A stretch of DNA of 64,000 nucleotides, from NCBI GenBank assembly GCA_030849075.1, contig JASAOO010003557.1:84235-148234 (forward strand). The letters run 5' to 3'. Below the pieces are notes generated by a model. It did not search any database and was not told the origin of the DNA. It was given only the letters and a program-made list of their open reading frames with translations. Within the stretch, counting starts at the first letter, position 1, and every line of letters starts with the position of its first letter. Below, in pieces: positions 31,504-56,537 of this stretch. The stretch is from Zelonia costaricensis. Lineage: Eukaryota > Euglenozoa > Kinetoplastea > Trypanosomatida > Trypanosomatidae. Position numbers and translations under genes: made by a program.

Positions 31504-31548
31504 CACACACACACACACACACAGACACACACACACACACACACACAC
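31504..31548 (+). repeat. (CA)n microsatellite
   Basis: About twenty-two CA units with one GA interruption, ending about 65 bases before the predicted splice acceptor of the CFAP91 gene. Confidence 0.95.
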
Positions 31549-31590
31549 GCACAGCAGCAGCGGGGTCACTCGCTTCGCTCTTTCGGCTCC

Positions 31591-31616
31591 ACTTACCTTT
31601 TTTCCTTGTCTTCCAG
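31591..31616 (+). promoter_or_regulatory. Predicted trans-splice acceptor for the CFAP91 gene
   Basis: An uninterrupted pyrimidine tract CCTTTTTTCCTTGTCTTCCAG with the AG at 31615-31616. The ATG follows 110 bases later. Confidence 0.7.
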
Positions 31617-31725
31617 ACATCAGCGTCTCGACTCCCTCCCCCCCCCCGCCTCAACACAGAGCCGCGCATTTCGAGAACAAAACAAAAAAGAAGTGGCTTC
31701 TGATAGGAGGCGCGGTAGCTCGATC

Positions 31726-34011
31726 ATGTACAGGCAGCAGCAGGCGCCGAACGTCCCCGGCGGTCGCGGGTACGCGACGGAGGTGGCGGGGCGCGACCGG
31801 GTCAAGTTCTTCCGCCGCCCGGTGGAGCCGGACAACACCGTCTTCGATGGTACCAACCCAAACTCCGACGCGGCCTACGCGGGGCGGCGCGCGGATGCGA
31901 TACAGGCGCAGTTCTCCGCGAGCTGCCCGTCCTTCACGCTTCCGTCCAACGCGATGGGCTTTGCCGCCTCGCTGCAGCAGGCGGGAGCGGCTGGAGCGGG
32001 TCGCAGCGGCGGCGGCGGCGGCCGTCCGTCGTCGGCGCTCGCCTGGCACCCACGCGGCGGCGCAGGGGGCGGCGGCAATGCCCTACTCCGCAAAGGAGGG
32101 CAGCGGCGCGCGAAGCCGCACCACCTGCCCAGCCTGCAGCGCGGGAACACCGCAGCGAGCCAGGGCAGCGCGGTGCAGGAGGGCGGCCGCGTCACGGCCG
32201 GCGCGCAGACGGTGCAGCGGGAGAACGAGGCGCAGACGGACCCGTACTCGCCCGACTACTTCATCCCGGAAGGCGCGCCAAAGCCGGAGGTTCTCGGACT
32301 GCAGAGCCTGACCTACCGCAACGGCGGGCTGCCGGCGGGCAAGGAGGGGGTGGAACTCATCCAGCGCCTGCGCCGGCGCCGCGAGGTGGAGGCGGCGCTG
32401 CCGACCGGGAGCGACGCGGCGTCGGTGGAGGTGCGCTACACCGTTCTGCACGAGCTGGAAGAGAAGGAGTGGGCTGAGCGGGAGGAACACGTTGAGAAGC
32501 TGCGCGAGCGCCGGCTGGACCGGATGCGGGGCACGATGCTTGCCCGCGAGGAGGCGCGCGAGGAAGCGAACCGGCAGCGGCTGGAGGACATCAAGGCGCA
32601 GTACATGCAGTCGCTGGGCGGCAAGCTCACCTCGCTCGAGAAGCGTCGCGTCGCGTCGAGCAAGCGGGGCATCGACAAGATGGCGCAGCTGCAGGCCGAG
32701 GGTGGCGCCGACCTCAGCGCCGGGGCGACCGCGCTCGGTGGCGGGCACGCATCCACGGCCGCGCGCAACGGCGCCGCCGCTGCCGGGTCGACTGGGCGCG
32801 GCATCCCGGCAGCGACGGCCAGCGGCCGGGCCAAGCCGAGCATTGCCACCTACGCGCGCTACGGCACCGACGGCGCGCCGCCGCAGATTGAGCACGGCGA
32901 TGCCGCTGCGGGCGCCAGCATCGATGCCCGCCTGCGGGCCGCGCGGCAGACCTTCAACTACGACGTGCGCCCCCAGCTGCTCTCCGACCCGGTGGGCACG
33001 GAGGTGGTGGACAGGGAGCGCGGGGAACGGCTGGACCGCGTCGCCGCGCGCACCTTCGTGGTGCCCGAGAACGCCGCGGTGAACCAGCTGCCGACGCTCT
33101 ACCAGCGGCGCGAGGCGCAGCGGGTGCTAGAGTCGCTCGAGTACGCGTACAGCAAGCTGCACCCGTCGCCCGAGGCGGAGGCGGGCAATTCGGGCGAGAT
33201 AAGTGCGCAGCGGGTGCTGGAGCTGTACCGCGCGACGCCGAAGCTACAGCGTCCCGAGACGCCGGTGCTGGAGCTGGACGGCGACGACGAGGAGGAGGAG
33301 GAGGATGCCTGCATTCTGCTACAGCGCCTCCTGCGCGGTCGCGCCGTGCAGAACGACTTCTTCGACGGCCGGGAGCGCTGCCGCGGCCTCATCGAGGAGC
33401 TGCAGGCCGCCTCCACAGCGCAGAACGCGGAGCAGCAGGCGGCGGAGCAGCGCAAGGAGGAGCTGCTGGGGAAGGAGCGGGAGGCCGAGGCGCACAACGT
33501 CGTCGGCACCGCACTGGGCTCGGTCATGCACGACACCCTCGGCTTCCTTGCGCAGGAGCTGAGCCGGCAGCAGGACATGGCGGCGCTGCGGCGGCTGCAG
33601 GAGGAGGCGGAGGCGGTTCGGGCCACGCGCGAGGCGGCCGAGCGGGCCCGCCGTGCCGACATGCGCCAGCAGCGCGACCGCAACGAGGTGGCGTACGCGG
33701 CATACATGCGTGCCACCGACACGACCCTGCAGTGCTTCATCGACGACGTCACGCGCGCCGCAGTGGAGGAGACGGCGATGCGGGTGGCGGTAACGGCCGA
33801 GGTGGGGCGCCAGGCGGCCCGGCCCTCACCGCGCGAGCCGGCCAACGAGGAGGAGGCGGAGGCGATGGTGTGCGACATGCTCGATGGCTTCCTCATCCCC
33901 GCCGTGGTGGATGCGATTGGGCTGCAGGGGCGCGAGCGCGAGAAGAGGGCGATCGCCGGCGCAGCGCTGGACGCCGCTCACGCGATCAGCAAGCCCGGCG
34001 GCGGTGGATGA
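31726..34011 (+). CDS. CFAP91: CFAP91/MAATS1, cilia- and flagella-associated protein
   Basis: 761 residues, against about 767 for the human protein. The start is the first ATG after a strong splice site. An upstream in-frame extension lacks an ATG. Diagnostic CFAP91 blocks appear in order. At about 168-225 there is EAQTDPYSPDY followed by P.PE.L.L..LT...GLPAG...VE.I.R.R..R..EA.LP. At about 230-320 there is a charged coiled coil with KEWAEREE and EKLRERRLDRM. At 529-550 there is CILLQRLLRGRAVQNDFFDG, nearly the same as the human ILLQRLLRGRAVQ motif. The last 200 residues are helical. CFAP91 (Chlamydomonas FAP91/AAT1) belongs to the calmodulin- and spoke-associated complex at the base of the radial spokes on doublet microtubules, so this gene should be needed for normal flagellar beating. 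The N-terminal 165 residues are Gly/Ala-rich. Confidence 0.93.
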   Translation: MYRQQQAPNVPGGRGYATEVAGRDRVKFFRRPVEPDNTVFDGTNPNSDAAYAGRRADAIQAQFSASCPSFTLPSNAMGFAASLQQAGAAGAGRSGGGGGRPSSALAWHPRGGAGGGGNALLRKGGQRRAKPHHLPSLQRGNTAASQGSAVQEGGRVTAGAQTVQRENEAQTDPYSPDYFIPEGAPKPEVLGLQSLTYRNGGLPAGKEGVELIQRLRRRREVEAALPTGSDAASVEVRYTVLHELEEKEWAEREEHVEKLRERRLDRMRGTMLAREEAREEANRQRLEDIKAQYMQSLGGKLTSLEKRRVASSKRGIDKMAQLQAEGGADLSAGATALGGGHASTAARNGAAAAGSTGRGIPAATASGRAKPSIATYARYGTDGAPPQIEHGDAAAGASIDARLRAARQTFNYDVRPQLLSDPVGTEVVDRERGERLDRVAARTFVVPENAAVNQLPTLYQRREAQRVLESLEYAYSKLHPSPEAEAGNSGEISAQRVLELYRATPKLQRPETPVLELDGDDEEEEEDACILLQRLLRGRAVQNDFFDGRERCRGLIEELQAASTAQNAEQQAAEQRKEELLGKEREAEAHNVVGTALGSVMHDTLGFLAQELSRQQDMAALRRLQEEAEAVRATREAAERARRADMRQQRDRNEVAYAAYMRATDTTLQCFIDDVTRAAVEETAMRVAVTAEVGRQAARPSPREPANEEEAEAMVCDMLDGFLIPAVVDAIGLQGREREKRAIAGAALDAAHAISKPGGGG

Positions 34012-34194: not shown

Positions 34195-35064
34195 CTTCTG
34201 CAAGCACGCTGGTGCGTTGTCTGGTTTGTCTTTTTTTTCTCCCTTCCGACTTGCCGCTAGACTTCATGTACAGTGCCATCAACTGTCTCCCTCGTGGAGG
34301 GCTCCCTTCACGTGACATGCTGATTTCGTGCGCACACGTGAGTTGCCACGCTTGCTGTTGTTCCACTTCGCTGCACTTTCGCGCGAGGCGTTGTGCGTGT
34401 GTGGTTGGCGACTCTGACAGTTTCCTTCTTTTTTTTTTGAGGAGCGGGATGGCTGATGTCGAGCCTCCCTCCCCCTCCCTTCTCCTTGGCTCGCGTTGCT
34501 GCGAGACGATGTCCAGTTAGTGCCTTTCTTCATCTATCTCTGTGTTTGCAGGTGCGGTGTACTGCAATCACGCGTTGAGCCCTCGATGCTACACTTTCAA
34601 CCACAGCAATATGCAAAGCGATGACGACCAATTGGCACACACACACACACACACACACACGAAAAAAAGGAGCGAGGAGACGGGCAGATGACTCTCGCTC
34701 CACAACGCGCGCGCCCTGTGCGGGTGCGGGGTACGTACGAGTGCCTGCTCTGGTTGTCCGCGACGTGACAGAGGTTGTCAACGTGTCACCGCCTCGACGG
34801 CAGCGACACGCAATCCAGCACGGGCGTGCTTGGTGAACCCTTACTGACAGCTGTGCCACATCGGCTGTCGTGTGGCGCTGCGCTGCAAACAGCGCTAGTA
34901 CTCGTCCAGGTGACCAGCCTACGCCACTGATGCCCACCTGACCTCCCTCATGCCTCACTTCTTGGTGCACTCAGAGCTCTGCGGCCGCGTCGGCTAACGC
35001 GAAGGACGGCTGAAGGGTTTCCGCGCCATCGTGCTCGCTGGGCTGCTTGTCGCCTTCCAACTTG

Positions 35065-35089
35065 ACACACACACACACACACACACACA
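35065..35089 (+). repeat. (CA)n microsatellite
   Basis: Twelve CA units, about 250 bases upstream of the 35338 start codon. A matching tract lies at 34636-34660. Confidence 0.95.
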
Positions 35090-35280
35090 TTGCAGGTATC
35101 TGGTGGCCTGGATTTTGTCCTCGTACGCGCGTTGCTTCCTCGCGCGCCGGCTGGTGGCCCGTGACGCGTCCTGCAGTTGAGCGAAGGAACAAACAAAGCA
35201 AAAAAAAAGAAGAACAAGGCAGCGCCGTGGATCCTGCCGCTCTTCGACTGCCCTTTCCACACCGTCTGCTAGATCCCGCA

Positions 35281-35303
35281 CGCTTTCTCCCTTGTCTCTA
35301 TAG
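35281..35303 (+). promoter_or_regulatory. Predicted trans-splice acceptor for the 35338 gene
   Basis: CTTTCTCCCTTGTCTCTATAG with the AG at 35302-35303, 34 bases before the ATG. An alternative AG is at 35271-35272. Confidence 0.6.
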
Positions 35304-35337
35304 ACCCCACCCTCTCCGGCCCGCCACGGTCACCGCC

Positions 35338-37203
35338 ATGACGGAGTCCTTCGTACCGCGGCTGCAGCTCAACGTATCGCGGTTCTCCGGCGGCACGGGT
35401 GGCGGTGGGGTTGGACAAGCTGGTGCCCTCAACCGCACGGCCGCCCCACCGTCCAACGCCGCTGCAGCTGCTACGGCGACTCACTCCCATCTCGGCGGGG
35501 GCGGCGCTCCAACCAACAACACCAGCATGACGAACAACACGTCCAGCAGTGACTGGATGCGGGACAGCTACGCATCTGGTGGTGGTGCGCGCGGCAACGG
35601 AGCTGGTGAGCCGCCCTCGCCCATCCCCCGCTTTGGTGAGAATGGCGTCGGCAAGGGCGGTGATGCGTGGGCTGGGCCCTGGCAGCGCTACGCGAACCCG
35701 CAGCCGACGGGTGACTACCGCGATGGCACCGACAGCGGCAGCCGCGGCATGCCCGGCCCCTCCGCGACTCGACCGCTCTTTACCACCATCAGCGCGTCGC
35801 AGCCGCAGGACCGAAACGTGCAAGCCGGTGACACGGGCTATGTGGCGTGGTCCAGCCAGCCGCACCGAGTTTTCACGTCCAGTGCGACTGCGGCCACCAG
35901 CGCAGCACACCCCCCTGCAGCGCCCTTCTCGTCGGCCACGTCCGCCGCCTACACACGCCCTGCCTTCACCTCCACCTACGTCGGCACCTCCTCCGGCGCC
36001 ATGCCGGCATCACGGCAGCCGTACACCAGCGTGGGGGTCTCGGATGCGGACTGGCGCGGCACCGGGGCCTCGGCCGCACAGCCCGGCGCGGACGGACTGG
36101 TCAGCAGCCGCTCCCGCGTGCGAGCGGATCGCTGGACAGACGAGGACCCGTGGGGCCCGGCGACGGACAACAACATGTCGGGCAGCGGCTCGGACGAAGA
36201 TGACGACGGCGACACCTCGCGGTCCTCAGGCTCGGCGTCCGAGAGCAGCGATGCCTCGGAAAAGGTGCGTCCGCGGCGAAGCAGCCGGCGGCACCGTCAC
36301 CGCTCTGGCGGGGGTCAACACTCCAGCCGTCGCCACCGCAGTCGTGGACCGCGCGTCAGGGACAGGGAGAGCGGCGATGACTTCAGTGATGGGACGAGCG
36401 GCAGCGGTGGTGGCGGCGACTTCCCGCTGTCCTTTGCGGACGCTATTGTTGCGGCGATGGACTCGCAGCCGGTGGTGCCGCTGACGCTGCTGCGCAGCGC
36501 GCAGGAGCCGCCGTTCATTTGGAACCGGCACCCGAGCCACGGCATCCTGCTTATCCTGCTGCAGCACCGCGGCATCTACCTCCCCCGCTACCGGGAGCTG
36601 GTCGACTACCACATGGCCGAGCTGTTCCTGCACTACATCGACCTGTGTCGCGAGGGCGCCTTTTTCGTCTTCTACGCGCCGGGCAAGTGGCCCAAGGAGC
36701 GCTTCTTCCGCATCCGCATGCTGCCGGTCAACCGAATCGAGGCCTCGACGGAGCCCGTGCCGCACCTCGTCATCACGCTGCACGAAAACGCTGTCGACAT
36801 CGTGGACGCCATTCCGCTGGACAACCTGGTCGGTGTGACCGTCACCCCGCAGGCCGCGTGCTTCCGGCCGTTCCTGGAGTCGCCGAACACCATCATCGGC
36901 TGCCGCGAAGGCCGCGGCCACCGCGCGCGCCTCCCCGTCGACGGCGCCTTCAGCTTGTGGTTCTACGACGCGACGCGCCACACGTCGCGCAGCGTGGACC
37001 TGCTCACGTGCGACGCGAAGGTGTTCGACATCTGGACGAAGACGTTTCGCGGCCTCGTGAGCGTCAACAGCTCGTCGGTGGTGCAGGTCGCGCTGACTCC
37101 GCAGGGCGAGTCCGCCGAGCTGGCCGAGCGCGCCATGGCCGCGCAGCAGCAGGGCGAGATCGACCACGGTGAGTCACGTGGCAAGCGCTCCCCACGCGAC
37201 TGA
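35338..37203 (+). CDS. Protein with disordered N-terminus and kinetoplastid PH-like C-terminal domain
   Basis: 621 residues from the ATG at 35338. Residues 1-270 are Gly/Ser/Thr/Asn-rich. Residues 275-350 combine an acidic Ser/Asp patch (SGSDEDDDGD) with an Arg/His/Ser-rich stretch (RRSSRRHRHRSGG). The ordered part is about 370-600. It opens with a helical block (WNRHPSHGILLILLQHRGIY, then a Tyr-rich segment). A beta-rich domain follows: FFVFYAPGKWPKERFFRIRM, LVITLHENAVDIVDAIPLDN, then a Cys/Phe segment, FSLWFYDATRHTSRSVDLLT, and a closing helix around VFDIWTKTFRGL. A run of strands closed by one C-terminal helix with a central Trp is the pleckstrin-homology plan, and a PH-like domain of this kind is common in trypanosomatid proteins. 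Ligand and role are unknown. The domain call is structural inference. Confidence 0.75.
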   Translation: MTESFVPRLQLNVSRFSGGTGGGGVGQAGALNRTAAPPSNAAAAATATHSHLGGGGAPTNNTSMTNNTSSSDWMRDSYASGGGARGNGAGEPPSPIPRFGENGVGKGGDAWAGPWQRYANPQPTGDYRDGTDSGSRGMPGPSATRPLFTTISASQPQDRNVQAGDTGYVAWSSQPHRVFTSSATAATSAAHPPAAPFSSATSAAYTRPAFTSTYVGTSSGAMPASRQPYTSVGVSDADWRGTGASAAQPGADGLVSSRSRVRADRWTDEDPWGPATDNNMSGSGSDEDDDGDTSRSSGSASESSDASEKVRPRRSSRRHRHRSGGGQHSSRRHRSRGPRVRDRESGDDFSDGTSGSGGGGDFPLSFADAIVAAMDSQPVVPLTLLRSAQEPPFIWNRHPSHGILLILLQHRGIYLPRYRELVDYHMAELFLHYIDLCREGAFFVFYAPGKWPKERFFRIRMLPVNRIEASTEPVPHLVITLHENAVDIVDAIPLDNLVGVTVTPQAACFRPFLESPNTIIGCREGRGHRARLPVDGAFSLWFYDATRHTSRSVDLLTCDAKVFDIWTKTFRGLVSVNSSSVVQVALTPQGESAELAERAMAAQQQGEIDHGESRGKRSPRD

Positions 37204-38790: not shown

Positions 38791-39743
38791 GAGACAACTT
38801 GTGTGTGTGGATGTGCGTGTGCTACACCGTGACACTGCTGCTTGTTGACCGACGTTGCTTCAACCGCCCCCCCCCTCTACCCCCGCCCTCGTCGTGTGCG
38901 TGTGGGTGCGTGTCTCTGTCGCGGGTTTGGGGCCTTCCCACACCTGGGTGTCGCAGCCCGGTGCTGGATCTCATGTACACTAGTTTACTTTACGGCGTCA
39001 GCGTTGCTTCACTGATTGTCTCTCTCTCTTGGTGGATGCGGGCATCCGTGCGCTTTGGCCACCCCGTCGTGGCAACTCGGGATCAGCGGAGGCGAAGCAG
39101 CCGAGCAAGTTACCGTCGAGCGTGCGCTGGCGATGGGTACCTTCCTGCACACCTCCCCCCACCGCGCTTGCGTGCGTTGTCTCGTCTAATTTCGCCATCT
39201 CCGCACGGATGCATTCACCACACCCAAGCTGCAATGACGAACAACAGCAACAACAACAAATGATGGACAAGCGCGCTCCTCAACCGAACGAGATCAAGGT
39301 GGATCGGTGTAGCAAGGGGTGGGGAGGCCGCGGCGCTGTACGAGGTGCTCCCCATCGAACCCACGCCACATCCAACCGCAAGCGGCGTAGCCGGGCTTCG
39401 GACGGTCAGCGCAGGCCACACTGCGGACAACGGGCCCGCGACCCCCCCGCCCTCCCCTGTGCACGTCAGCGAGCTTTTGCATCTCTCCGCGCAAACGCGC
39501 CTGCCTGCACACTCGCGTAGCGTGCCATCCGGCGCGCTCCTCGTCGCGGGTCCTCCGCCCCCCTCCCCCCCTCCACCTCACGCAGCGCTGTAGTCTCTGC
39601 GGGCATCCCTTTGACTTGCCACTCTCCCCCCCTCCCCCTCTCTGCCTTCCTGTGTTAGCGCCTTGGCTGGGCTGTCCCCACTTCGACTTCGAGATCTACA
39701 CGCCCTCGGTGGAAAAAAAAAGAAGGCAAAGCGGGCAAACGCC
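38791..39743. other. Intergenic region
   Basis: No supported gene. (GT)-type sequence lies at 38801-38820 just after the stop, an AACAGCAACAACAACAA stretch at 39241-39259, and C-rich splice-region sequence after 39550. Confidence 0.7.
39620..39658 (+). promoter_or_regulatory. Predicted trans-splice acceptor for the 39744 gene
   Basis: A long C/T tract (CTCTCCCCCCCTCCCCCTCT and onward) ends at GTTAG, with the AG at 39657-39658, 85 bases before the ATG. Confidence 0.6.
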
Positions 39744-41117
39744 ATGTCGATGGAGGGCATTATTCAGTACCGGCTGCTGGGCAACCACCCGGCAGCCTCG
39801 GGCCGTTACCTCACGCTCGGCTTTCCAGGCGAGACCACCACGACCGACAAGCTCCTCGAGCAAGTGATCCAGGACCACCGCATCAACACGAGCCGGTACA
39901 AGTTCGAGGTGTGCCGCCTCGTCGTCTCCCGCGAGGCAGCGGCGTCGTCGCCGCCGCCGCCTGGAGTCACCCCAGGCGGCACATCGGGTGCCACGGAGGG
40001 TGTCAGCGACGGCACATTCTCCGGCTCCGGTGCCGTGGCCGGTGCCCAAAACACGCTTGTGCCGGTCGTGATTCATGGTGCCGATGTGCTGCGCACGTAC
40101 GACCGCCTCACCATCACGGTGTCGAAGCGCGACCTCGCCGACGATGAGGCCGCGCGTAAGGAGAAGGAGCGGTTGGAGCGGCAGCAGCAGCTGAAGGAGA
40201 TGGAGGAGCAGCTGCTTTCCACCGGGGTGCCCCCGCCGTCGATGCAGCACGCCGCCGGCGCCTCCCGCGTCGCGCAGTACTCGCGCGGTGCAAGCGCGCC
40301 GTGCGGGTCTGGGTCTGGTGGCGGTGCTCGTGGTGCTGGCGGCCGCTCGCCTGTGCCCCGCTCCTCCGCTTCCAGTGCCGCCGTTGACCCACTGCGTCTC
40401 CAGCGCGCGGCGCTGCTCGCTGGCCAGCTCTTCCCCATCATGAAGGGGAAGCACAGCGCTCTGAAGGGCCTCGACGACCCTGCGAACACACACCAGTGCG
40501 TCTTGTGCCGCCTCTCCGCATTTCAAGAGGAGCTCACGCCGTGCTGCCGCTTCAGTGTCTGCCACGCATGCTACGCTTCCGCCGCGGAGATGGTGATGGA
40601 AGAGGGACAGTGCCCCGTGTGCGGTGCCACCCCCTCCACCGCTGCTGCTGCGGCTGGTGGCGGTGCTGTGACGCGTTCGCCGGGGCACATCAAACGGGAC
40701 CGCGCCGATCCCGGCGAGGACGACGGCATGCCAGCATGGAAGCGCGAGGGGGACGAGCAGAAGGCCACGATGCAGCGGGCCATGGGCACTGCGGCTGGCG
40801 CTGCTGCCGCCCCGCACAGCCGCGGCGCCGGTGCCGATGAGGACGCAAGTACTGGCTACGAGCTGCACACGGGGCAGCGCGGGGGCAGCGGGTCGCCGGG
40901 GGAGTCTGGCCGATCCCTCAAGGTGGGCCCACGTGGCAGCGGTGGCGAGGGCGGCGCGTTGGCGGGGGCCAACGCCCGCGACGTGGCGCAGGTCGAAGAG
41001 CGGCTGCGCAACGACCTCCATCAGGCGCTGTCGATGCTGGACGCACCAGACCCGCTGACGGCGGCGGCCAAGGCGCGACGCGTCGTGAGCGCCGAGCTCG
41101 CCGCGCTCTGTGAGTGA
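39744..41117 (+). CDS. DWNN-domain RING-finger protein, RBBP6/Mpe1-like
   Basis: 457 residues. The N-terminus (about 6-130) has a ubiquitin-like DWNN pattern: IIQYRLLG, a Leu/Phe strand, a helix KLLEQVIQDH, a strand YKFEVC, then DRLTITVSKRDL. It is interrupted by a Gly/Ser/Thr-rich insert at about 70-105. A RING-like domain lies at 252-293 with C-x2-C, 11 residues, CC-x4-C-x2-C, 13 residues, C-x2-C. This is the same spacing, one residue apart, as the human RBBP6 RING with its CC pair. RBBP6/Mpe1 proteins are ubiquitin-ligase-like subunits of the cleavage and polyadenylation factor. In kinetoplastids, polyadenylation is coupled to trans-splicing of the next mRNA. The CCHC zinc knuckle found in Mpe1 is not visible. 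The C-terminal 160 residues are disordered and Gly/Ala-rich with a final helix. Confidence 0.82.
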   Translation: MSMEGIIQYRLLGNHPAASGRYLTLGFPGETTTTDKLLEQVIQDHRINTSRYKFEVCRLVVSREAAASSPPPPGVTPGGTSGATEGVSDGTFSGSGAVAGAQNTLVPVVIHGADVLRTYDRLTITVSKRDLADDEAARKEKERLERQQQLKEMEEQLLSTGVPPPSMQHAAGASRVAQYSRGASAPCGSGSGGGARGAGGRSPVPRSSASSAAVDPLRLQRAALLAGQLFPIMKGKHSALKGLDDPANTHQCVLCRLSAFQEELTPCCRFSVCHACYASAAEMVMEEGQCPVCGATPSTAAAAAGGGAVTRSPGHIKRDRADPGEDDGMPAWKREGDEQKATMQRAMGTAAGAAAAPHSRGAGADEDASTGYELHTGQRGGSGSPGESGRSLKVGPRGSGGEGGALAGANARDVAQVEERLRNDLHQALSMLDAPDPLTAAAKARRVVSAELAALCE

Positions 41118-41805: not shown

Positions 41806-44800
41806 ATGTCGTCCTCGAGGCAGACCGTGAGCCTGTACCGCTATGACCTCACGCAAGGCATGGCGCGCAGCCTGGGGCCGATGCTCATCGGCCGCCCCCT
41901 CGAGGGCATCTGGCACACATCCATCGTCGTCTTCGGCAAGGAGTACTACTTCGATGGCGGCGTCGGCATCGTCGGGGACCCCAACCCCGGCCGCACCCGC
42001 TTCGGGGCGCCGTACCGCACCGAGGTGCTGGGCCAGACCACCAAGCGGGAGGAGGAGTTTTTCGCGTGGACGCAGCAGCAGCGCCGCAGCGGCTTCGGCC
42101 CCAACGACTACCGCATATTCGACAACAACTGCAACAGCTTCTCCGACGCTGCATGCATGTATCTGCTGGGCCGCCACATCTCGCAGGACGTGTTGGACAT
42201 GATCCCCACGCTCCTCTCCACCCCGATGGGGCAGATGCTGCGACCGATGCTGGAGCAGGCCACGTCCGGCGGGGCGGGGGTCGGTGGCACCGGCATGGTG
42301 GCGCCACCCGCGCCACGGCCGCTGGCCTCGGCGCCAGCGGGCACCAGCAGCGCGGACGAGTGCTCGGGCCTGCTCAGCCAGCGCGGCAGCTTGACGGAGT
42401 CAGACGAGGATGACCTTGTCATGGCGCAGGCAATGCTGGAGAGCAACGAGACGATCGCCGACGGCCCGCGCAGCCCGGCCGAGGCGTTCGAGAAGACCAT
42501 CAGCGGTCTGACGCTGCTCCGCACGGTGATGCTGAACATTTGCCAGAACCCGACCTCGGCCCGCTACCGCGCCGTCTCCACCGAAAGCAACGCCTACCGT
42601 ACAAAGCTGAAGCCGCTGGAGACCTACGGGGTCACGGAACTGCTGCGCGTCGCCGGCTTCCGTCGTCGACCCCACAGCAGCGGCACCGGTGGCGAGCAGT
42701 GGTTCCTGTCCGACAGCGACGGCAGCGCCGGCGTGCTGGGCCGCGTGGCGGATGCGCTGGAGACGACAATTGCGAACATTCAAGCGGCGGCCGATGAGGC
42801 AGCGAGGCTGCGCCGTCAGGCGTCGGCGGGGGCAGAGGAGGACGCTGGTGCGCAAGCTCGCACCACCGCGACGGTCCCAGCGTCCGCGTCCGGCCCGTCG
42901 CCGTCGTCGGCCCGCGACGACGGTGGCGTGGCGCCACTCAAGACGCCACCTGCGCCGGCGAACCACGTGCAGGCGCACAGGAGTGACGTGCTGCGGTACT
43001 GCTCCCCGCCTTTCCCGACGGAGTGGGTGCCGCTGCCAGTCGGGCGCGAGGCGGGCGCTGCGCTCTTCTCGATCCACTGCCTCGCCACGAGTTCCGCGGA
43101 CGGACCGTACTGCTTCGGCAAGTGCCGCCTCTCCGGTGCCAACCAGCAGCACCTGCAGGCGCACTACTGCAGCAGCGATGGCAAGGAAGTCGAGATCCGG
43201 GGTGGGTACGAGGTGCTGTGCGTGCGTCGCGGGCAGCAGCCGCAGCAGGCCCTGACGTGGGTGCCGGCCTCGCTCGCCTTCACCCAGCAGCTGCAGCAGG
43301 CGACGTCACCGCACGAGTCGTTCATCTTCACCGGCTACGGTCGCTTTGCCGTGGCGCGGGCGGAGCACGGCTGCGGCGTGCACCCCGGCGTGATGGAGCC
43401 GTCGGGCCGCTGCGTCATCCCGTACGGGGGCCGCGCGGTGGTGGTGACGGACGTGGCCGAGGTGCTCTGCGAGACGGCGCGGCTGCCGCCAGCGGTGGCG
43501 GAACAGACGGCGGCGTTGCAGCGTGGACACGATCTCGCCGAACTCGTGCGCGCCGCTGGCGGGCTGCCCATCTCGTCCTTCGACGAGCTTCTTTCCTCGT
43601 GGCAGCCGCCCGCCTTCTACATGAAGCCGTGCCCGCTGCGTACCTGCACGCCGCTCGGCTTGCGGTCGCTGAAGTGGACGGCAAACACCGGCACAGCTGA
43701 GGGCGGCGCGGCGGTGGCGAGTGTCGGCAGCGGCGACGCGGAGGGGGACGGGTCTGCGGCGCGGCTTCTCGTCTGCCACGACTACGGCGGCGGCTACACC
43801 CCCGGCGACCGGCGCCTCTTCCTGTGCGGCGACGGCGCGGCAGATCGGCTGCCAAGCGTGGAGAGCGCCTACACGGTGAGCTACTGGGACCGCGCGGACG
43901 CATTCGTATACTTCTCGCATCAGCGCGTCAGCATCCCGCCGCGGGAGTGGATCGAGTGTGGCCATCGGCACGGCGTGCCCGTGCTCGGCACCGTGATCAC
44001 CGAGGGCGAGAGCGGCCACGCTGACTTGCAGCTCCTCTTGACAGATGCGACCCGCATGGCCACCATTATTGCCCGCCTCGCGGCTGTCTGCGACGCGCAC
44101 GGCTTCGACGGCTACCTCATCAACATCGAGAACTCGCTGCCCGAGACGCTGGCGAAGCGCCTTGTGGTGTTCTGCACGCAGCTCCGCAAGCAGCTAAACC
44201 GCGCCCCTGCCCCTTCGACACCCCGCCTCGTCGTCTGGTACGACGCCATCACGACCGACGGCCGGCTGCACTACCAGAACACGTTGAACGCACGCAACAA
44301 GCCCTTCTTCGACGTGAGCAGCGGCATCTTCGTCAACTACTTTTGGAATCCGATGCACCTCGCGCTGGCCAAGACCGCCGCCGGTAGCCGCGGCCTCGAC
44401 GCGTACGTTGGGGTGGACGTGTTTGGTCGCCACATGTACGGCGGTGGCGGCTACAACACGCACGTCGCCGTGACCGAGGTCGCGAAGGCACGGCTCTCCG
44501 TCGCCCTCTTCGCGCCTGGGTGGGCGATCGAGTCGGAGAGCAAGGGTACGCGCGACGGCTTCCAGGTGGCAGACAGTCGCCTGTGGTCCCGCATGCAGGA
44601 GAAATTCGCGTACCACACGCGGGTGGTGTCGGCGACGCATGCTGGGTCTGAAGCGCACCACCGGCTCCGGGCGTGGACCTCGTACAGGTCCGGGGTTGGC
44701 TACAGCTTCTACGTGAACGGGCGCTGCATCAGTGGGGCCTGTGACATCAGCAGTAGCAGCGGCACCGACGGCAGTGGCAGCAGGCGCAGCGGCTGGTGCG

Positions 44801-45984
44801 AGCTCTCCGGCGCACACGGCGTGCCCGCTTTCCTCTTCGAGGTCCCACCAGCAGCACCACCGCACCCTGCTGCTGCAGCAGCGGCCGCAGCCACACCCGC
44901 CCCCGCCCCGGCGGCGCCCTTCGCCCCGGTGCCCATCCGCCTGCCCGTTGCGCCTCTCCAGGGCAACCTGTACGGTGGTGTGGCGCGGGCGGAGTGGCGC
45001 TTCGATGCGGCGTGGTTTGGCGACCGCCACCTAGCGTGCCTCGTGCCGCCGATGGAGGCGGCGGAGGTGCTGCGGTGGTACGTGCGGGATGCGCTGCCGG
45101 CGGGGTCAGCTGTCACGGAGCTGCACGTGGAGGCGGTGTACCTGGTGCCGGAGACGGCGCAGGGGGAGCGGGCGGCCGCCCCACGCGGGCTGCGGCTCGG
45201 CCTCTACTGTGCCTCCCGCGGCGCCTTTTTCGCGACCGTCTGGGAGACGGCGGCAGCGACGACGTCGGAGCCGCTGGCGGAGCCGCTGGTCGCGCTGGAG
45301 GGCTGCGGCGGGCATGTGCGCGCCAGTGCAGCGCACGCCCCAGGCACGGCGGCGTCGCCACGCTGGGAGCGGGTAACGTACCGGCTGGAGAACACGTCGC
45401 AGGAGTCTATCCACCTCACCTCCCTCTCCGTGGCGAACGGCGACGCGCGGCGTACGATGCAGTGCGGTGTTGGCGGCCTTGCTGTCTATCACCGTGTCCG
45501 CATCGAGGCGACTCCAACAAACGCAAGTGACGCTGCTGCTGATACGGTGGGTGCAGCCGCGTCGCCGCGCTCGTCAGTGCTGCGCGCCCTCGGCCCGTAC
45601 CAGTGGGCTCGCCATCACACGCATCGCACGCACAAGACGGCGGAGCAAGTGTTGGTGCTCAGCGGCGCCGACGCCGCGTTCGCCCGTCTCCGCGCGCGGC
45701 ACGGCGTGCACGAGTCGCTCGTGGTGTTCGCGCGCATCGGCAATGCTGCTGCTTCACTGCACAGCGACCCAGCCGCAGCGGTAACGCAGGCGGCGGCGGA
45801 GGAGGACGCCGCTGAGGTCGAGGTGCCGTGCGACGGTGAGGGTGATCTGATGTACCTCGGCCAGTACCCGCTTCTGCCTGAGGCTTGCGCGATTCACAAT
45901 GACGCCCTCCTCGTCCCCATCGCTCTCCCAACAAGCGCAGGCATCGCAGCGGTGCACTACTACATCGTGTCAGAGGGTTACTAG
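41806..45984 (+). CDS. PPPDE-PUB-DM9-ENGase fusion: GH85 endo-beta-N-acetylglucosaminidase with isopeptidase, p97-binding and lectin-type modules
   Basis: 1392 residues; the frame begins at this ATG. Four modules are visible. (1) About 8-150, PPPDE/DeSI cysteine isopeptidase: GIWHTSIVV with catalytic His37 and DNNCNSFSD with Cys109, both intact. (2) About 225-315, PUB domain: NICQNPTSARYRAV, then LLRVAGF, the fold that binds p97/VCP tails in peptide:N-glycanase. (3) About 400-560, two DM9 (DUF3421) repeats: GGYEVLCV and LTWVPAS, then HPGVMEPSGRCVIPYGG; some DM9 proteins bind mannose. (4) About 586-1000, GH85 endo-beta-N-acetylglucosaminidase: LLVCHDYGGGY, DAFVYFSHQRVSIPP, HRHGVPVLGTVITE and FDGYLINIENSL, with catalytic Asn773 and Glu775, then VALFAPGW. 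Cytosolic ENGase cleaves the GlcNAc-GlcNAc core of N-glycans. The rest (1000-1392) is beta-rich, as in GH85 C-termini. There is no signal peptide, so it is probably cytosolic. The fusion suggests handling of retrotranslocated glycoproteins (inference). Confidence 0.93.
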   Translation: MSSSRQTVSLYRYDLTQGMARSLGPMLIGRPLEGIWHTSIVVFGKEYYFDGGVGIVGDPNPGRTRFGAPYRTEVLGQTTKREEEFFAWTQQQRRSGFGPNDYRIFDNNCNSFSDAACMYLLGRHISQDVLDMIPTLLSTPMGQMLRPMLEQATSGGAGVGGTGMVAPPAPRPLASAPAGTSSADECSGLLSQRGSLTESDEDDLVMAQAMLESNETIADGPRSPAEAFEKTISGLTLLRTVMLNICQNPTSARYRAVSTESNAYRTKLKPLETYGVTELLRVAGFRRRPHSSGTGGEQWFLSDSDGSAGVLGRVADALETTIANIQAAADEAARLRRQASAGAEEDAGAQARTTATVPASASGPSPSSARDDGGVAPLKTPPAPANHVQAHRSDVLRYCSPPFPTEWVPLPVGREAGAALFSIHCLATSSADGPYCFGKCRLSGANQQHLQAHYCSSDGKEVEIRGGYEVLCVRRGQQPQQALTWVPASLAFTQQLQQATSPHESFIFTGYGRFAVARAEHGCGVHPGVMEPSGRCVIPYGGRAVVVTDVAEVLCETARLPPAVAEQTAALQRGHDLAELVRAAGGLPISSFDELLSSWQPPAFYMKPCPLRTCTPLGLRSLKWTANTGTAEGGAAVASVGSGDAEGDGSAARLLVCHDYGGGYTPGDRRLFLCGDGAADRLPSVESAYTVSYWDRADAFVYFSHQRVSIPPREWIECGHRHGVPVLGTVITEGESGHADLQLLLTDATRMATIIARLAAVCDAHGFDGYLINIENSLPETLAKRLVVFCTQLRKQLNRAPAPSTPRLVVWYDAITTDGRLHYQNTLNARNKPFFDVSSGIFVNYFWNPMHLALAKTAAGSRGLDAYVGVDVFGRHMYGGGGYNTHVAVTEVAKARLSVALFAPGWAIESESKGTRDGFQVADSRLWSRMQEKFAYHTRVVSATHAGSEAHHRLRAWTSYRSGVGYSFYVNGRCISGACDISSSSGTDGSGSRRSGWCELSGAHGVPAFLFEVPPAAPPHPAAAAAAAATPAPAPAAPFAPVPIRLPVAPLQGNLYGGVARAEWRFDAAWFGDRHLACLVPPMEAAEVLRWYVRDALPAGSAVTELHVEAVYLVPETAQGERAAAPRGLRLGLYCASRGAFFATVWETAAATTSEPLAEPLVALEGCGGHVRASAAHAPGTAASPRWERVTYRLENTSQESIHLTSLSVANGDARRTMQCGVGGLAVYHRVRIEATPTNASDAAADTVGAAASPRSSVLRALGPYQWARHHTHRTHKTAEQVLVLSGADAAFARLRARHGVHESLVVFARIGNAAASLHSDPAAAVTQAAAEEDAAEVEVPCDGEGDLMYLGQYPLLPEACAIHNDALLVPIALPTSAGIAAVHYYIVSEGY

Positions 45985-48685: not shown

Positions 48686-50671
48686 GGAGCGGTGCTCCAT
48701 CGTTGTCTTCTCCCGCTCCCCGTGTTCCTCGTGTTTGCGTTGCCACATGTCGGGTCTCGATCGTTTGCCCACGTAAATCGAAGACGGCAGCGAGCTCGTT
48801 GTGTGCTGCTGCGCCGAGAAGTGCGCGTGGGGTTCCTCTTTCGATCTTTGCTTTGCGGCGCGACTGGCCGCTACGCGAACCAGCCATGTGTGCGGTGGCG
48901 AGACGCAGGTTGTGTATACTTGTGTGTGTGTATGTGTCTGCCGTATTGTGGTTCTTGTTTTTAGAAGGTACTCTGATGTGCTGCGCTTGCGGGAAGGCGT
49001 TTCGGGGTGCTGCTCTCCGGCACTCATGTCTCGCGTCTATTTCTGAATGGGAACGAGTGATGCGTGGGTGGGCTTAGATGGGGTTTTGCTTTGCTCTCCC
49101 CTGGCGTGGCTTCTCCACCCCTGCGAACCTGAATTAGAGAGGGCGTGACCTGCTTTACGTGTCTTGGTTGTTTTCCTTTATGGCCTGCGGCGTGCCCGTC
49201 CGTGATGGCTGCCGAGGGTGATCTTCTCTTATCTTTTCTTTTTTTGTTTGTTGAGCTGGTCGATGCTGGTGTGGATTCGTTTTTTCTCCTATCGCTGCGC
49301 GCACGTGGCTCGGTGCGCTTCTCGAATAAACAGGTCTCTTGTTGCCTTAGAGAAGGCCACAGAATCGCGGAAAGGGCTGCAGCGAGCTGTTCGAGACAAG
49401 GCAAAGGAGTCATTTGCTTTGCTGTTTGTCTTGTTCTCCCCTCTCTTCACTGCGCGCTTTAAAAAAAAAATGCGCCTCTTCGGCTGCGCTGCGTGTGCAC
49501 AAGGCAGCCACACACGTGCGGGGAGGATGGTTGCGCGCAACCCGCAGGCAGGAAGTCAGCGCGGGCTCGCGAGACGAGGGTGCTTAACCGTAGATGTTTG
49601 CATGCGTTTGTGTGTGTGTGTGTGTGCACGTCTCAACCCTTTCTCTTCAGAAGCACATACAAGCACACACACACACACACACAAACCAAAAAAAAAGTCT
49701 ACGCATATCGTTTTCTCGTTCTTCGGCAGCGTGCCTCACACTGAGTTCTGTGCTTGGTTCTCTTTTTCATTGTTGTGTGATTAGCCGATGGTGTTGCCTT
49801 GTGTTCTCTGTGTGTGGGTATGTGTTTTCGTGTTGAACCTACAATTTGTCTCGCGTGTGGTGGGGTGCGTGCGCATCAACCGCTTCTCTCTCTGGGTGTG
49901 TGTGTGTGTGTGTTTCTTATTTCGGGTTGTCCCCACTTCCTCTCCCCCCACCCGCCTCTCCGTACCTCTTCTCTTCTTCGTTTTACCGTCGGGGACCCAC
50001 ACGCATTCCCCTGACTCTCCCTGCCCCCCCCTCCTCCCTATCAAGCCTGTTTTCCCGTTTCTCGACATCAAAACAAACACCCTGTGCCCAGGGCAGCCGG
50101 CGCACATCTTGTGCGTAGGGTGGCGAGGGGCTCCTCTCAGGCCTGGCTTGCTCTCGCACCGCCCCCACAGTGAACGGTGCCCCCCCCCCCCCCCCAGCCC
50201 CCTCCCCTGCGGAGTACCATACGTGCCCCTGCGTGCCCCTCCCGTTGTGCGAGCAGCAAGCCTCGCCCATCCCCGTACACGTCAGGATGAAGCCCGTACC
50301 CGTTGTTCACGTTTTACTAGAGGCGAGCTACTTGCAGCATTCAGACAGCGGCGCTCGCAGGGGTTGCCGTGACAGCGGATGCGCGCTCGCCATCGCTTCC
50401 CCCCCGTGTCGTCTCCTACCGCACTCTCTCTCGAGCTACCGCTCCCTTCCCTCGCTCGCTGCCCCAACCCTCCCCCCCTCCCGGTGGCATGATGGCACGC
50501 CCGCTACAGTGAATCACACCGGTCCCCCCTTAACCAACCCCTAAAGGAAGCCACGCCGATCCATCGGCTTTCACAAACACCTCGCAGCAGACACACACAC
50601 ACACACTTGTTTGTGGCTTGTTTCATCCCCCTCCCCTCCCTGCTAGGGCCGACTCCATCAGCGTGCACGCC
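48686..50671. other. Intergenic region
   Basis: No supported gene. (GT)-type tracts lie at 48921-48936, 49611-49626 and 49897-49911, (CA)n at 49664-49683 and 50591-50606, and a C-run at 50180-50197. Confidence 0.65.
50620..50646 (+). promoter_or_regulatory. Predicted trans-splice acceptor for the 50672 gene
   Basis: GTTTCATCCCCCTCCCCTCC, then CTGCTAG with the AG at 50645-50646, 25 bases before the ATG. Confidence 0.65.
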
Positions 50672-53632
50672 ATGTCGTTGGCGGAGACCTTCCTTCGTGG
50701 CGGTACGCCGTGCACGTCGCCAGCGGAGCTCGCCGAGGTGCTCAGCGCCGCGCAACCGCCGTACACGTGCTGGCGCTGTGTGGCTTACTACCCACGCCGC
50801 TGGTACCACGACGCCGTGGAAAACAAGCTCACAGCGCCGCTCTTTTTCCTTCTCTTTGCTGCACGGGACCGGGCTGGGGAGATCGGCACCGCTGTCGAAT
50901 GGCACTTGCTCTACTTCACGATCCTTCCCGAGGGCGCGTCCCCCGCGGAGGTCTTCACGCGCGACCACGCAGCCGCCTTTGAGGCCCACGACCTGGACGC
51001 CAGTGGCGCTAGCGCACTCCTGAGCAGCGGTGGCGGCGGTGTGGGTGCCCTGCGTGCCGTGCTGCGCGGTGTCCCGGCCACACTGCAGCCCAGCGTGTCG
51101 CTGGAGTGGTTCAGCGTGGCGGACGGCGTTGCCTACCGCAAGATGGAGCTTCTGTCTGACCGTGTCTTTCGCAGCATGATCGCGCCAGGGCTGTGTGACG
51201 TGCTGCGCAAGCACTGGACTCCCCCACAACGGGAAAGTCGGGAGCCGGGTAACAGGCGCGCGCCAGAGAGCGCCAGCCGAGTGGAGGGCGATGCGCAGGC
51301 GTTTTGCGGCGCTGCGCCGTCTCCACGCAGCTCGGCCTACTACGTGGCAGACGGGGTGGAGGTGGCGGCGGTGGCCGACGCAGGGAACGCCTGCAGTGCC
51401 GCGTCTGACTTCACATCTGGCGGCTCCCCAGACGGTGCGGGCCGCGGCTCTGTCGATGAGGTGGTGTCCCTCTTGCCACACACGCCGCAGCGGGACCACG
51501 CGCCGTTTGCTCCGCAGACGGTGCGCGATGCTGTGCAGTGGCTGAGCGCGCAGAAGAAGGCGGCTGCCCTTGCGGCAGACGCCTCGGTGCCGTCCATCAC
51601 GTCAGCGGGCTACTCCACCGTGTACCCCCTCGCCGCCACACTGCCGCCACGTCTCTACACAACGCTCTTCACGGAAAGGGCCGACACCTCTTCGCTGCCG
51701 GACGCTGCTGCGGTGGACGTGGAGGCGCTAACGGGGCTGGCCAAGCTGCGGGCAGAGCGGGACGCCGGGATTGTGCAGTGGAAGAAGCGAATTGGCGAGT
51801 ATGGCAGCTTCACCGTGCCAGCCAGCAGCAGCGGCAGCAGCAGCGGCGGCAGCCCCGAAGCCGGCGCTGCCCGCAGTTTTCGGCACGCCCTCCTGCTGCA
51901 GCGGCCCACTGTCGTGAAGAGGGCCATCGACGTCGACAACCGCGACGCCGGCCCGCTCTCGCCGCAGCCCATTGGGGCGGAGCTGCACCTCATGCAGGAT
52001 CGCGGCGACGTCCACCACGCGCTCGAACAGCTCGGCAACCGCGCCAATGTTCACTTTGTCTTCGAGGACGTCGTGCACGATGACGGTGAAGTGCTGGTGC
52101 AGCTGGCCCCTGTCGAGGGCGTCCCGTTCGCCGACCTCGACGTGTTCTTCGCGTCGGTGCCAGCCGACTCACCCCTGCTCACCTCCGGCCCTGCCGCGCA
52201 GTGTGCCGGGTCGTGCTGCGCGGCTGTCGTCCCCCGCGTCGTGTTCCGCCGACCGACAGGGAAGTCGCAGAAGGCAAACCCTATCGCCCACGCTCTGACG
52301 GAGCTGGAGGTGAGCTCGCCGACTCCTGACATGCTCCAGGCAGCAGCCGCGGCGCTGCAGTTCCTGGCGGCGCACCTGGTCGTGGTGCCGGAGCCGGCTA
52401 GCCACGGGCGCGGCGGGGCCGAGCCGTACCCGGGCTACACCCTCGGCGCGCCTCCAGTGGACGTGTCGGCGCTGCCGACGCGCACCTGCGGCTGGTGTGG
52501 CCGGCGGCGTGAGGCGCTGTTGCGCTGTGGTGGCTGCAAGGCGGTGTGGTACTGCTGCAAGCGCCATCAGGCGCTGGATTGGAAGGAGGGGACGCACAAA
52601 TCTGAGTGCAAGCTGTGGCGCCGTGCGTACGAGGTGCAGGAGCGGGTCGTCGCGCCCTGGGCTGCAGCGCGTGCCTCTGCAGCGTCCGGCTTCTCTGCGA
52701 CGAGTCGGGGCTGGTCGTGTGCCGCGACGCTCGTGGCGTTTCTCACAGATGTGGCACCTCTCCTGCGGGCAGCAGCGGTAGCCACCGTAACCGCGTACGC
52801 GTATGTACACGTCGTCGGCCTCGACGCGTCTTGCGTGGCGGACTTCGTGGCGGCGCTGGCTGAGGACACACAGCTGCACGCCGCGCTCACGCAGCGGACG
52901 TCTTCGCCAGACGCCGCACCCTGGCAGCTGCGGCTGCTCCTCTGCTCCGACACCTTCGCCGACGTCCAGCGCAACGCCGTGTGGGCTATTCGACGAGAGG
53001 GTCCGCTGGCGGGGACACCGTGGCTGACGCCGGGCACGGGCGTGCTGGGCGATGCGTGGCACTGCGCCGGCGACAATGCTGCCGCAACGCAGCCTGCCGC
53101 AGCGGCGGCGCTGGTGCGGCTGGCAGCTGTGAAGTACCACACGGTGGAGCGCCACCGCGATGCCGCGCGAGAGGGTTGCGCCGCGGCCGTGCTCTCTTTC
53201 GGGCCAGCCACGGGCGAGGGCTGCACGTACCTGAGCGCGGCGCTCGAGACGTTTGCGAACTGGGACGTCGGCGTCGTGCCGCTGCGCTTGGTGGACAGCT
53301 CGTACGTGGGGGCGGTCCGCACACGTGAGGCTGTGTTGGCCCGCGTGAGTGGCAGCGAAACGTGTACAGCAGCGGTGAAGGCACGGGTGGCGGCGCTGGT
53401 GGGTGTGGCGAAGCAGGCGGAGGCGGCACCGGCCGACGCACCCGTCGCGATGGCAATACGCGTCAACGTGGACGGAGCTGTCCCCGTTCCGACGTCAGCG
53501 GAGGACAGGGCCATCACCACCGACCCTCCCTCGGCGGCCACACCGCCGCTGCTCAACAACGCCGCCATGCTCGTAGTCACGCCGTACATCAACTCGTTTC
53601 TCTGCGACCTTTTTCCGGCGGACTGCAGTTGA
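50672..53632 (+). CDS. MYND zinc-finger protein
   Basis: 986 residues from the ATG at 50672. A MYND finger spans about 606-645: C-G-W-C-G, then LLRCGGCKAVWYCCKRHQALDW and H..EC, giving the C-x2-C, C-x2-C, C-x3-C, H-x3-C set of the family, which mediates protein-protein contacts. The first 190 residues are compact and aromatic (CWRCVAYYPRRWY, LFFLLFAARDRAGEI) with no recognised family. The stretch around 200-420 includes low-complexity sequence and a Ser/Gly run at about 385-400. After the finger, residues about 690-985 alternate hydrophobic strands and helices: YVHVVGLDAS, LRLLLCSD, AAVLSFGP and MLVVTPYINSFLCDLFP. This resembles the C-terminal domain found in yeast MSS51-type MYND proteins. 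That resemblance is tentative. Localisation is not evident. Confidence 0.83.
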   Translation: MSLAETFLRGGTPCTSPAELAEVLSAAQPPYTCWRCVAYYPRRWYHDAVENKLTAPLFFLLFAARDRAGEIGTAVEWHLLYFTILPEGASPAEVFTRDHAAAFEAHDLDASGASALLSSGGGGVGALRAVLRGVPATLQPSVSLEWFSVADGVAYRKMELLSDRVFRSMIAPGLCDVLRKHWTPPQRESREPGNRRAPESASRVEGDAQAFCGAAPSPRSSAYYVADGVEVAAVADAGNACSAASDFTSGGSPDGAGRGSVDEVVSLLPHTPQRDHAPFAPQTVRDAVQWLSAQKKAAALAADASVPSITSAGYSTVYPLAATLPPRLYTTLFTERADTSSLPDAAAVDVEALTGLAKLRAERDAGIVQWKKRIGEYGSFTVPASSSGSSSGGSPEAGAARSFRHALLLQRPTVVKRAIDVDNRDAGPLSPQPIGAELHLMQDRGDVHHALEQLGNRANVHFVFEDVVHDDGEVLVQLAPVEGVPFADLDVFFASVPADSPLLTSGPAAQCAGSCCAAVVPRVVFRRPTGKSQKANPIAHALTELEVSSPTPDMLQAAAAALQFLAAHLVVVPEPASHGRGGAEPYPGYTLGAPPVDVSALPTRTCGWCGRRREALLRCGGCKAVWYCCKRHQALDWKEGTHKSECKLWRRAYEVQERVVAPWAAARASAASGFSATSRGWSCAATLVAFLTDVAPLLRAAAVATVTAYAYVHVVGLDASCVADFVAALAEDTQLHAALTQRTSSPDAAPWQLRLLLCSDTFADVQRNAVWAIRREGPLAGTPWLTPGTGVLGDAWHCAGDNAAATQPAAAAALVRLAAVKYHTVERHRDAAREGCAAAVLSFGPATGEGCTYLSAALETFANWDVGVVPLRLVDSSYVGAVRTREAVLARVSGSETCTAAVKARVAALVGVAKQAEAAPADAPVAMAIRVNVDGAVPVPTSAEDRAITTDPPSAATPPLLNNAAMLVVTPYINSFLCDLFPADCS

Positions 53633-55151: not shown

Positions 55152-56537
55152 CTTCTCTTTCTCTCTCGCCCCGCACTCCCTCCGCTGTTGCGTTGCACAA
55201 GTGCAAACATCCAAGCCAACGCGAGGAAAGCGAACGATCGATCGATCGAGAGAGACAGAGCTAAAAGAGAGGACGTGCACCACACGCACCAACGAGTTTT
55301 GCAAAAGTGGAGAAGAAGAGGCGAAGAGTCACGGGCGAAGCAGGGTCGGGCTGCGCGAGGGAGCGAGGAGAAGGCTGGCGGTCTGGACTCGACTGAAAAC
55401 GAAATCGAAACTCAAGCGCCAGTCGAGGCGAGGAGCCAGCGGGTGGCGGCTGTCTTATCCTGTGCCTGGCCGCGTGAATCTTTGCTGAGTGCTGGAGACG
55501 TACGAAAGGGACCTTTATAACCCTTCTTCTGTGACACCCGTTTCCGCTCCGTCATCACCACCACCATCAGCAGGCCTTTCTCCCCAACTCGGTTCGCTCC
55601 TTGCTCTTGCTTTTTTTTTCTGGGTTTTCGTGTTGTCTTCTCCCGATCGCGGCGCGCCCTTCACTTTCTCGGCTGCCTTTCTTTCACGCGTGTTGTTCGT
55701 GTTTTTCTGTTTTGCTTTTGCTTTGAAGGGGTTTATCCCTTTTCCGCCCGGGCCACACATATCTTTTTTTCTCTCTCTTGCGTGCACCTGTCACCTGATT
55801 TCCTGGCTGTACCACTGCGTCTTGTCCACCCCCCTACCTCACTTCCCTTTCCTGGAACTTCTCTTGACTGCCTCTGTCTTCCTCTCCACTGGCTGTCGCT
55901 GCTCCGCTTGCGCTTCCTCGGTCGTGGCCCTTCCTGCTTTGTTGAAAAAAAAGCAGAGGCCTCGCGCGCGCCTGTGTGTCTGTGTGTGTCTGTATGTGTT
56001 CTTTGTGCTGGTGTGTCTTGACGTGGCTGTAGGCGCACATCTTGTTTTTGTGCTCGTGTGCCGGTCCTCGACCCTTGACTTCGCTTCTATCTCCTGTCTC
56101 TCTTTTTTCTTTTTTCTGTGTGGCCTCCCCCCCCTCCTCCCTCGCTGGAATAAGTCGAGGGCGTGGTTCTCTCGTCTTGTCCTTTCCTTGTTTGCCACTT
56201 TGCGGCTCTTCAAACTCCGTTGTCTGTGTGAATTCCTCTGGCACGTTGACTTCTCCTTCTTTTTTGTTTCTGGCTGGGGCTTTGCCTATTGGAGCCCCTT
56301 CTCTCTCTCTCCCACTCACTTCGAACTCGAATCTCTGCCCTCCCCCCCCGTCCACGGCCCGAAGTTGGAGAGTCCACTACACCGCCTTGAAGGCTTTCCT
56401 CCGTAACTGGCGCATTTGTTTTGCTTTGCACTCCCAGCCGCGTTGTGTTATCTTGTTTGGTTACGGAGACTTCCCGTGGAGCTCGGCCGGGAATTGCGCT
56501 CCTGTGCGACGTGACAAAGACAGGAGCTCGCATCTCG

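Follow-up and report, generated by a model that had tools for sequence, protein, structure and literature searches.

A four-module ENGase of Zelonia costaricensis as a possible kinetoplastid counterpart of PNGase

Why should a glycan-cutting enzyme carry an isopeptidase, a PUB domain and a lectin on the same chain? The question is raised by one open reading frame (ORF) in a 64,000-nucleotide stretch of the trypanosomatid Zelonia costaricensis (assembly GCA_030849075.1, contig JASAOO010003557.1, positions 84,235 to 148,234 of the forward strand), hereafter the window. Its product, which we call the fusion protein, joins a PPPDE domain, a PUB domain, two DM9 repeats and a glycoside hydrolase family 85 (GH85) endo-beta-N-acetylglucosaminidase (ENGase). 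The initial annotation had proposed a self-contained processor of misfolded glycoproteins that docks on p97, grips high-mannose glycans, removes them and possibly removes a ubiquitin-like tag. The modules, the active sites and the lectin fold of that proposal hold, and no peptide:N-glycanase (PNGase) was detected in the genome; the docking on p97 is the part that finds no support. Our analysis leads us, with middling confidence, to a modified reading, in which the fusion protein is a cytosolic ENGase acting as the kinetoplastid counterpart of PNGase.

One chain with four modules

Pfam profile searches match all four modules in the order first described (PPPDE, PUB, two DM9, GH85), each above its cut-off: PPPDE at 93.5 bits (curated cut-off 29.2), PUB at 41.9 (34.3), DM9 at 30.2 and GH85 at 289.6 (22.2). 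An NCBIfam scan of the fusion protein gave zero matches. An intron-free reading of the ORF suffices, with 32 codons upstream of the ATG staying open to a stop at 41707, and the presence of four modules on a single chain is confirmed (Table 1). In the host genome (28.7 Mb, 755 contigs, searched in six frames), GH85 and DM9 occur at one place each, and PUB and PPPDE at four each; the sole DM9 place is this gene, which scores below cut-off in the six-frame search.

We compared the fusion protein with 40 relatives, picked by their domains from three protein searches, two of which gave the best 120 of 362 and the best 120 of 464 matches, while the third scored 7999 candidates. The resulting 41 rows are proteins whose Pfam list shows PPPDE, PUB or DM9 with GH85, plus P0032 (GH85 only), and some are near copies of each other (P0003/P0004). 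All four regions are found in 25/41 rows (P0001-P0016, P0020-P0022, P0034-P0038 and P0127), a proportion that is no frequency among ENGases since the rows were chosen and not drawn. P0001-P0016 include Leishmania, Porcisia, Novymonas and Leptomonas. DM9 is assigned by Pfam in 15 of the 25 (the fusion protein, P0002-P0013, P0015 and P0127) and by alignment, with no Pfam match above cut-off, in the other ten (P0014, P0016, P0020-P0022 and P0034-P0038; P0038 reaches 21.6 bits and P0035 14.0 bits). PUB falls below the Pfam cut-off in P0020, P0022, P0031 and P0038.

Relatives lacking one or more modules had been named as a ground for doubt: set against the 25 complete rows, DM9 alone is missing in 10/41 (P0017-P0019, P0023 and P0025-P0030), among them T. 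cruzi, T. rangeli, T. conorhini, T. grayi, T. vivax and T. melophagium. PPPDE is missing together with DM9 in P0031 (T. congolense) and together with PUB in P0032 and P0033 (L. tarentolae). A few such relatives without N-terminal modules are what one might expect if separate genes had been joined into this frame by the assembly or the gene model, but these three truncated proteins may reflect late gene starts. The join itself, which we regard as next to impossible, is ruled out by the relatives: the 25 rows (Leishmania, Leptomonas, Porcisia and Novymonas records among them) come from different sources and cover all four regions in order, and the subsets present in outgroups follow that order too. 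As a separate observation, the record protein of P0033 begins inside the DM9 region, which could be a matter of the gene model or real decay.

Table 1. Features of the fusion protein gene, in positions of the window
Feature	Position	Strand	Basis or remark
Whole ORF	41806..45984	+	1392 aa
PPPDE / Peptidase_C97, residues 7-149	41824..42252	+	Pfam and PDB alignments
PPPDE dyad	H37 41914-41916; C109 42130-42132	+	PDB alignments, row counts
PUB, residues 229-301	42490..42708	+	Pfam; alignment to PNGase 2hpj/2hpl
Two DM9 repeats, residues 397-558, CGL1-like fold	42994..43479	+	Pfam, AlphaFold2, Foldseek, VIA-align
GH85 TIM barrel, residues 686-968	43861..44709	+	Pfam; Endo-A alignment
GH85 catalytic residues	N773 44122-44124; E775 44128-44130; Y812 44239-44241	+	
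C-terminal beta-rich region, residues 969-1392, usual GH85 tail	44710..45981	+	

Cutting and holding the glycan

The initial annotation had described His37/Cys109 of PPPDE and Asn773/Glu775 of GH85 as intact, and PDB alignments and row counts bear this out. N773, E775 and Y812 are kept in 41/41 rows; they correspond to N171, E173 and Y205, the residues essential in Endo-A (PMC2646837). The GH85 fold is complete to the last residue, with a TIM barrel followed by an Endo-A-type beta-rich tail. An unknown C-terminal domain in residues 969-1392 was considered and rejected, as structure comparison shows this region to be the normal GH85 tail; VIA-align matches of the second model are mostly to the barrel (model residues 9-370), and we therefore claim nothing from absences among them. 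With its complete GH85 fold and catalytic N/E/Y, encoded by the only GH85 gene of the genome, the protein resembles cytosolic ENGases and Endo-A, but differs from the former in the addition of PPPDE, PUB and DM9 on the N-terminal side.

Among the matches listed, most animal and plant ENGases consist of GH85 alone or with PF25529 (Ig_ENGASE1_C), a few have other domains, and the present architecture is absent from all those of animals. Outside kinetoplastids, only P0039, P0042, P0099 and P0127 among the matches listed show PPPDE, PUB or DM9. Also listed is P0071, a GH85 protein joined to PF04300, which we take to be the F-box-associated FBA family and thus a possible glycoprotein-recognition module on another ENGase. 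The Zelonia genome further holds one GH18 gene, at C458.

The DM9 region has two Pfam stretches, the best at residues 516-556, and gave zero matches to the PDB by sequence. This failed search was resolved by folding: the best matches of an AlphaFold2 model, by Foldseek and VIA-align, are to the high-mannose lectin CGL1, and the model places both DM9 repeats in the CGL1 fold. Mannose is bound in CGL1 by Asp22, Lys43, His52, Glu59, Phe126 and Ala127 at site A, and by Lys114, Tyr123, Glu130, Phe55 and Ala56 at the weaker site B (PMC4932603). Transferred by alignment through P0042, and not by coordinates, the site-A equivalents are E415, K439, Y454, E461, Y540 and G541, identical only at K43 and E59 and with E415, Y454, Y540 and G541 as conservative replacements. 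Site B is replaced (K114 by V529, Y123 by V537, E130 by A544), so that a second mannose site is not found. Over the 41 rows, position 415 is E in 26, D in 1, H in 2, R in 1 and a gap in 11; position 439 is K in 28, S in 1 and a gap in 12; and position 461 is E in 27, A in 1 and a gap in 13. In a 24-row DM9 alignment K439 never varies and E461 hardly does. With these site-A equivalents, one working mannose site is plausible on the sequence. The earlier description of mannose-lectin-like repeats stands for the fold, with conservative equivalents at one sugar site. The protein differs from CGL1 and natterin-type DM9 lectins in its replaced site B, and also in that DM9 is here part of a fusion enzyme, whereas CGL1 is an oyster lectin.

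The PUB and PPPDE modules

The pocket that holds the p97 tail is formed by Y-x-x-N-(x)9-Y plus K/R-x-x-N (PMC6995525). In the fusion protein the core reads V-x-x-N-(x)9-Y and the clamp S-x-x-S; relative to PNGase, Y38, R55 and N58 are replaced by V241, S258 and S261, and N41 and Y51 are kept as N244 and Y254. The canonical core is thus incomplete and the carboxylate clamp missing. The same holds across 35 kinetoplastid PUB rows (excluding P0127, which has no PUB match, P0032, P0033 and P0039, with P0042 and P0099 reported apart): the first Tyr is found in 0/35, Asn41 in 24/35, Tyr or Phe51 in 34/35, Lys or Arg55 in 3/35 and the clamp Asn58 in 0/35. With a PUB fold in which three of the five tail-pocket residues are replaced, the docking on p97 that the initial annotation had put forward is not supported, and we consider canonical tail docking unlikely.

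Could the PUB domain nevertheless dock directly on the p97 C-terminal tail, such that the enzyme works at p97 on glycoproteins extracted from the endoplasmic reticulum (ER)? We consider this doubtful, while recognizing that several lines point toward it. The PUB fold is clear, two of the pocket positions are largely kept, and the domain averages 75% identity to 11 relatives, which indicates that it does something. The ligand is available, as the p97 (CDC48) of the same genome ends PPADDDDLYS, a canonical D-D-L-Y-X tail, and LiPUB1 of L. infantum has been docked in silico to DDLYS, the Leishmania VCP tail (PMC7403338). Three further PUB genes of the genome read R-x-x-N (L015), K-x-x-N (L016) and R-x-x-T (L014) at the clamp, and L015 and L016 are also without the first Tyr, so that its absence by itself may not be decisive in this group; P0099, an outgroup with PUB and GH85, keeps a K-x-x-N clamp. 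In UBXD1, K198E costs only about 3.5-fold in affinity. Against docking, changes at the positions at issue here have been costly: Y181A and N201A lower the affinity of UBXD1 about 8-fold and 5-fold, and mutation of R55 in PNGase abolishes binding (PMC6995525). HOIP N102D/Q abolishes OTULIN binding (PMC4017264).

A pull-down with L. infantum VCP also bears on the question, having named LiPUB1 (LinJ.09.1060) and LiPUB2 (LinJ.11.0920) as partners, while LiPUB3 (LinJ.36.0140, UBX and PUB) came from a genome search and not from the pull-down (PMC7403338). The terms "Glycosyl hydrolase" and "N-acetylglucosaminidase" have 0 occurrences in the main text of that paper. In Porcisia and six Leishmania records, the contigs with a relative of the present gene measure 1.4-1.6 Mb. 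Leishmania chromosomes 9 and 11 are shorter than this, and the present gene is therefore apparently neither LiPUB1 nor LiPUB2, which speaks against docking; it is likely that none of LiPUB1-3 is the present gene. LiPUB1-3 share the PUB fold with the fusion protein, as do L014-L016, which could not be matched to them; of these, L015 and L016 keep the K/R-x-x-N clamp that the fusion protein is without.

No region of the chain is better conserved than PPPDE, with H37 and C109 kept in 35/35 rows that have the domain (a raw C109 count of 36/41 includes P0039, an alignment stray without the domain). PPPDE is 87% identical to 11 Leishmania/Leptomonas-group rows and 58% to five of Trypanosoma, compared with 66% and 52% for GH85 in the same rows. 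By its PDB matches, 3ebq and 2wp7, both of which we take to be DESI-1, the domain is presumably of DESI-1 type. It is a predicted isopeptidase, and removal of a ubiquitin-like tag is plausible. The domain shares its His/Cys dyad with DESI-1 but heads a chain of 1392 residues, whereas DESI-1 is small and homodimeric (PMC4281951). A fungal protein, P0024 (left out of all row counts), joins PPPDE to PUL, also a p97-tail-binding family (PMC7403338); it is similar in pairing PPPDE with a family of this type, and differs in having PUL in place of PUB and no glycosidase. A second PPPDE protein of the genome (L019:1911-3917, contig C753) has a PUL match of 15.6 bits, below the 25.5 cut-off. No tie could be made between this gene and the PPPDE genes described in PMC6247020 and PMC10137940.

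These patterns of conservation also bear on another explanation, that of an ordinary ENGase under selection for glycan release only, with PPPDE, PUB and DM9 passively fused and left over in a structural or regulatory capacity. The DM9-less rows and the lost PUB clamp would fit it, but a PPPDE domain conserved above GH85 with its dyad intact throughout, and the invariant sugar-site lysine, would not, and we find this explanation unlikely.

Descent and a role parallel to PNGase

How was such a chain put together? Three transcriptome proteins carry subsets in the same order, namely P0042 with PUB, DM9 (95.9 bits) and GH85, P0039 with DM9 and GH85, and P0099 with PUB and GH85; placing them in Euglenozoa is a guess on our part, and P0099 and P0042 together suggest a stepwise assembly. 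P0127 bears the EukProt label PhM_4, and clone PhM-4 is Papus ankaliazontas, a free-living prokinetoplastid (PMC7859406); its PUB region aligns without a Pfam match, and about residues 196-300 look shortened mid-region. In the GH85 tree, the seven Trypanosoma-type rows fall together as a clade (100/99). Among the rows of the tree, the absence of DM9 from eight kinetoplastid rows takes two changes, a count that coded P0099 as having DM9 though it is without it. The free GH85 tree splits the 25 of its rows that we grouped as Euglenozoa (3 changes), with P0127, P0042, P0039 and P0099 falling with other eukaryotes; a single clade for those 25 rows is not rejected (p-AU 0.278), which is compatible with vertical descent of the group. 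Among the best 120 of 362 GH85 matches, T. vivax, T. congolense and T. cruzi are represented but no row bears the name T. brucei, and a loss in T. brucei is possible.

A survey for a separate PNGase, also suggested at the outset, found none in this genome by profile search. Transglut_core, the PNGase core, had no match even at E 1, in a search that succeeds in 10/14 control genomes, and the fusion protein itself has no Pfam match to it. A genome search of this type detected Rad4, a family whose fold we take to be related to Transglut_core, at E 4e-13. PAW gave only a sub-threshold match (E 0.26), in a search that succeeds in no control genome. Our searches of the literature on PNGase and ER-associated degradation in trypanosomes, including PMC4497807, found nothing decisive.

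Animal PNGase consists of PUB, a catalytic core and the mannose-binding PAW domain (PMC9102325), and the present ENGase thus carries a parallel set: PUB, an N-glycan-cutting domain and a mannose-binding domain. The two differ in catalytic fold and in the bond cut, as GH85 is predicted to leave one GlcNAc, in the mannose module (DM9, not PAW), and in the PUB tail clamp, lost here. We read functional convergence with PNGase as the best guide to the role. The DM9 pair would hold, via its one mannose site, high-mannose N-glycans of glycoproteins that are misfolded or retro-translocated; GH85 would cut between the two core GlcNAc, one of which stays on the protein; and PPPDE may remove SUMO or ubiquitin from the same or neighboring clients. 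PUB, perhaps derived from a p97-docking ancestor and now without the canonical tail clamp, might bind p97 weakly or otherwise, or hold another partner. We infer a cytosolic location from the start of PPPDE at residue 7, too near the N-terminus for a signal peptide to precede it.

Two observations weigh against a simple copy of the mammalian pathway: GH38 alpha-mannosidase has no profile match in the genome, and the Trypanosoma rows manage without DM9. The first of these could also indicate glycan salvage, the recycling of glycopeptides or free glycans, in place of ER quality control, as the missing GH38 breaks the usual cytosolic pathway and human cytosolic ENGase trims free oligosaccharides (PMC2909182). 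However, isopeptidase-type and PUB domains on one chain would point to protein quality control, and we think salvage rather improbable. As for the counterpart of PNGase, we tentatively extend it to a scenario that we put forward with some reserve, in which Euglenozoa rebuilt PNGase function from an enzyme unrelated to it, an ENGase that gained PUB and a high-mannose lectin; kinetoplastids would then have added the SUMO/ubiquitin isopeptidase and lost PNGase, and PUB would have been rewired at a later stage from the p97 tail to another partner.

In the ORF directly upstream (39663-41117), a RING-like zinc-binding stretch matches weakly and below cut-off. Other neighbors in the window are a CFAP91-type protein (31303-34011), a PH-like domain protein (35047-37203), a MYND-finger protein (50618-53632) and a 2223-aa ORF with a protein kinase domain (56042-62713).

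The initial annotation knew of no described protein with this combination. Our literature searches likewise found no paper describing the architecture; database records with precomputed Pfam domains already carry it, under names such as "glycosyl hydrolase-like protein" and "putative endo-beta-N-acetylglucosaminidase" (the latter in T. cruzi). Nor did literature searches find a description of cytosolic N-glycan stripping from misfolded glycoproteins in kinetoplastids. If the lack of PNGase holds group-wide, this step would fall to a single conserved gene in Leishmania and T. cruzi. The altered PUB pocket offers a direct test of what a PUB domain does without its hold on p97. If our reading is true, domain shuffling would have been convergent, with PUB, a glycan cutter and a mannose grip brought together twice on unrelated enzymes; in the scenario of a PNGase function rebuilt by Euglenozoa, Leishmania and T. 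cruzi would deglycosylate misfolded glycoproteins not by PNGase but by one multi-enzyme chain that leaves a GlcNAc stub.

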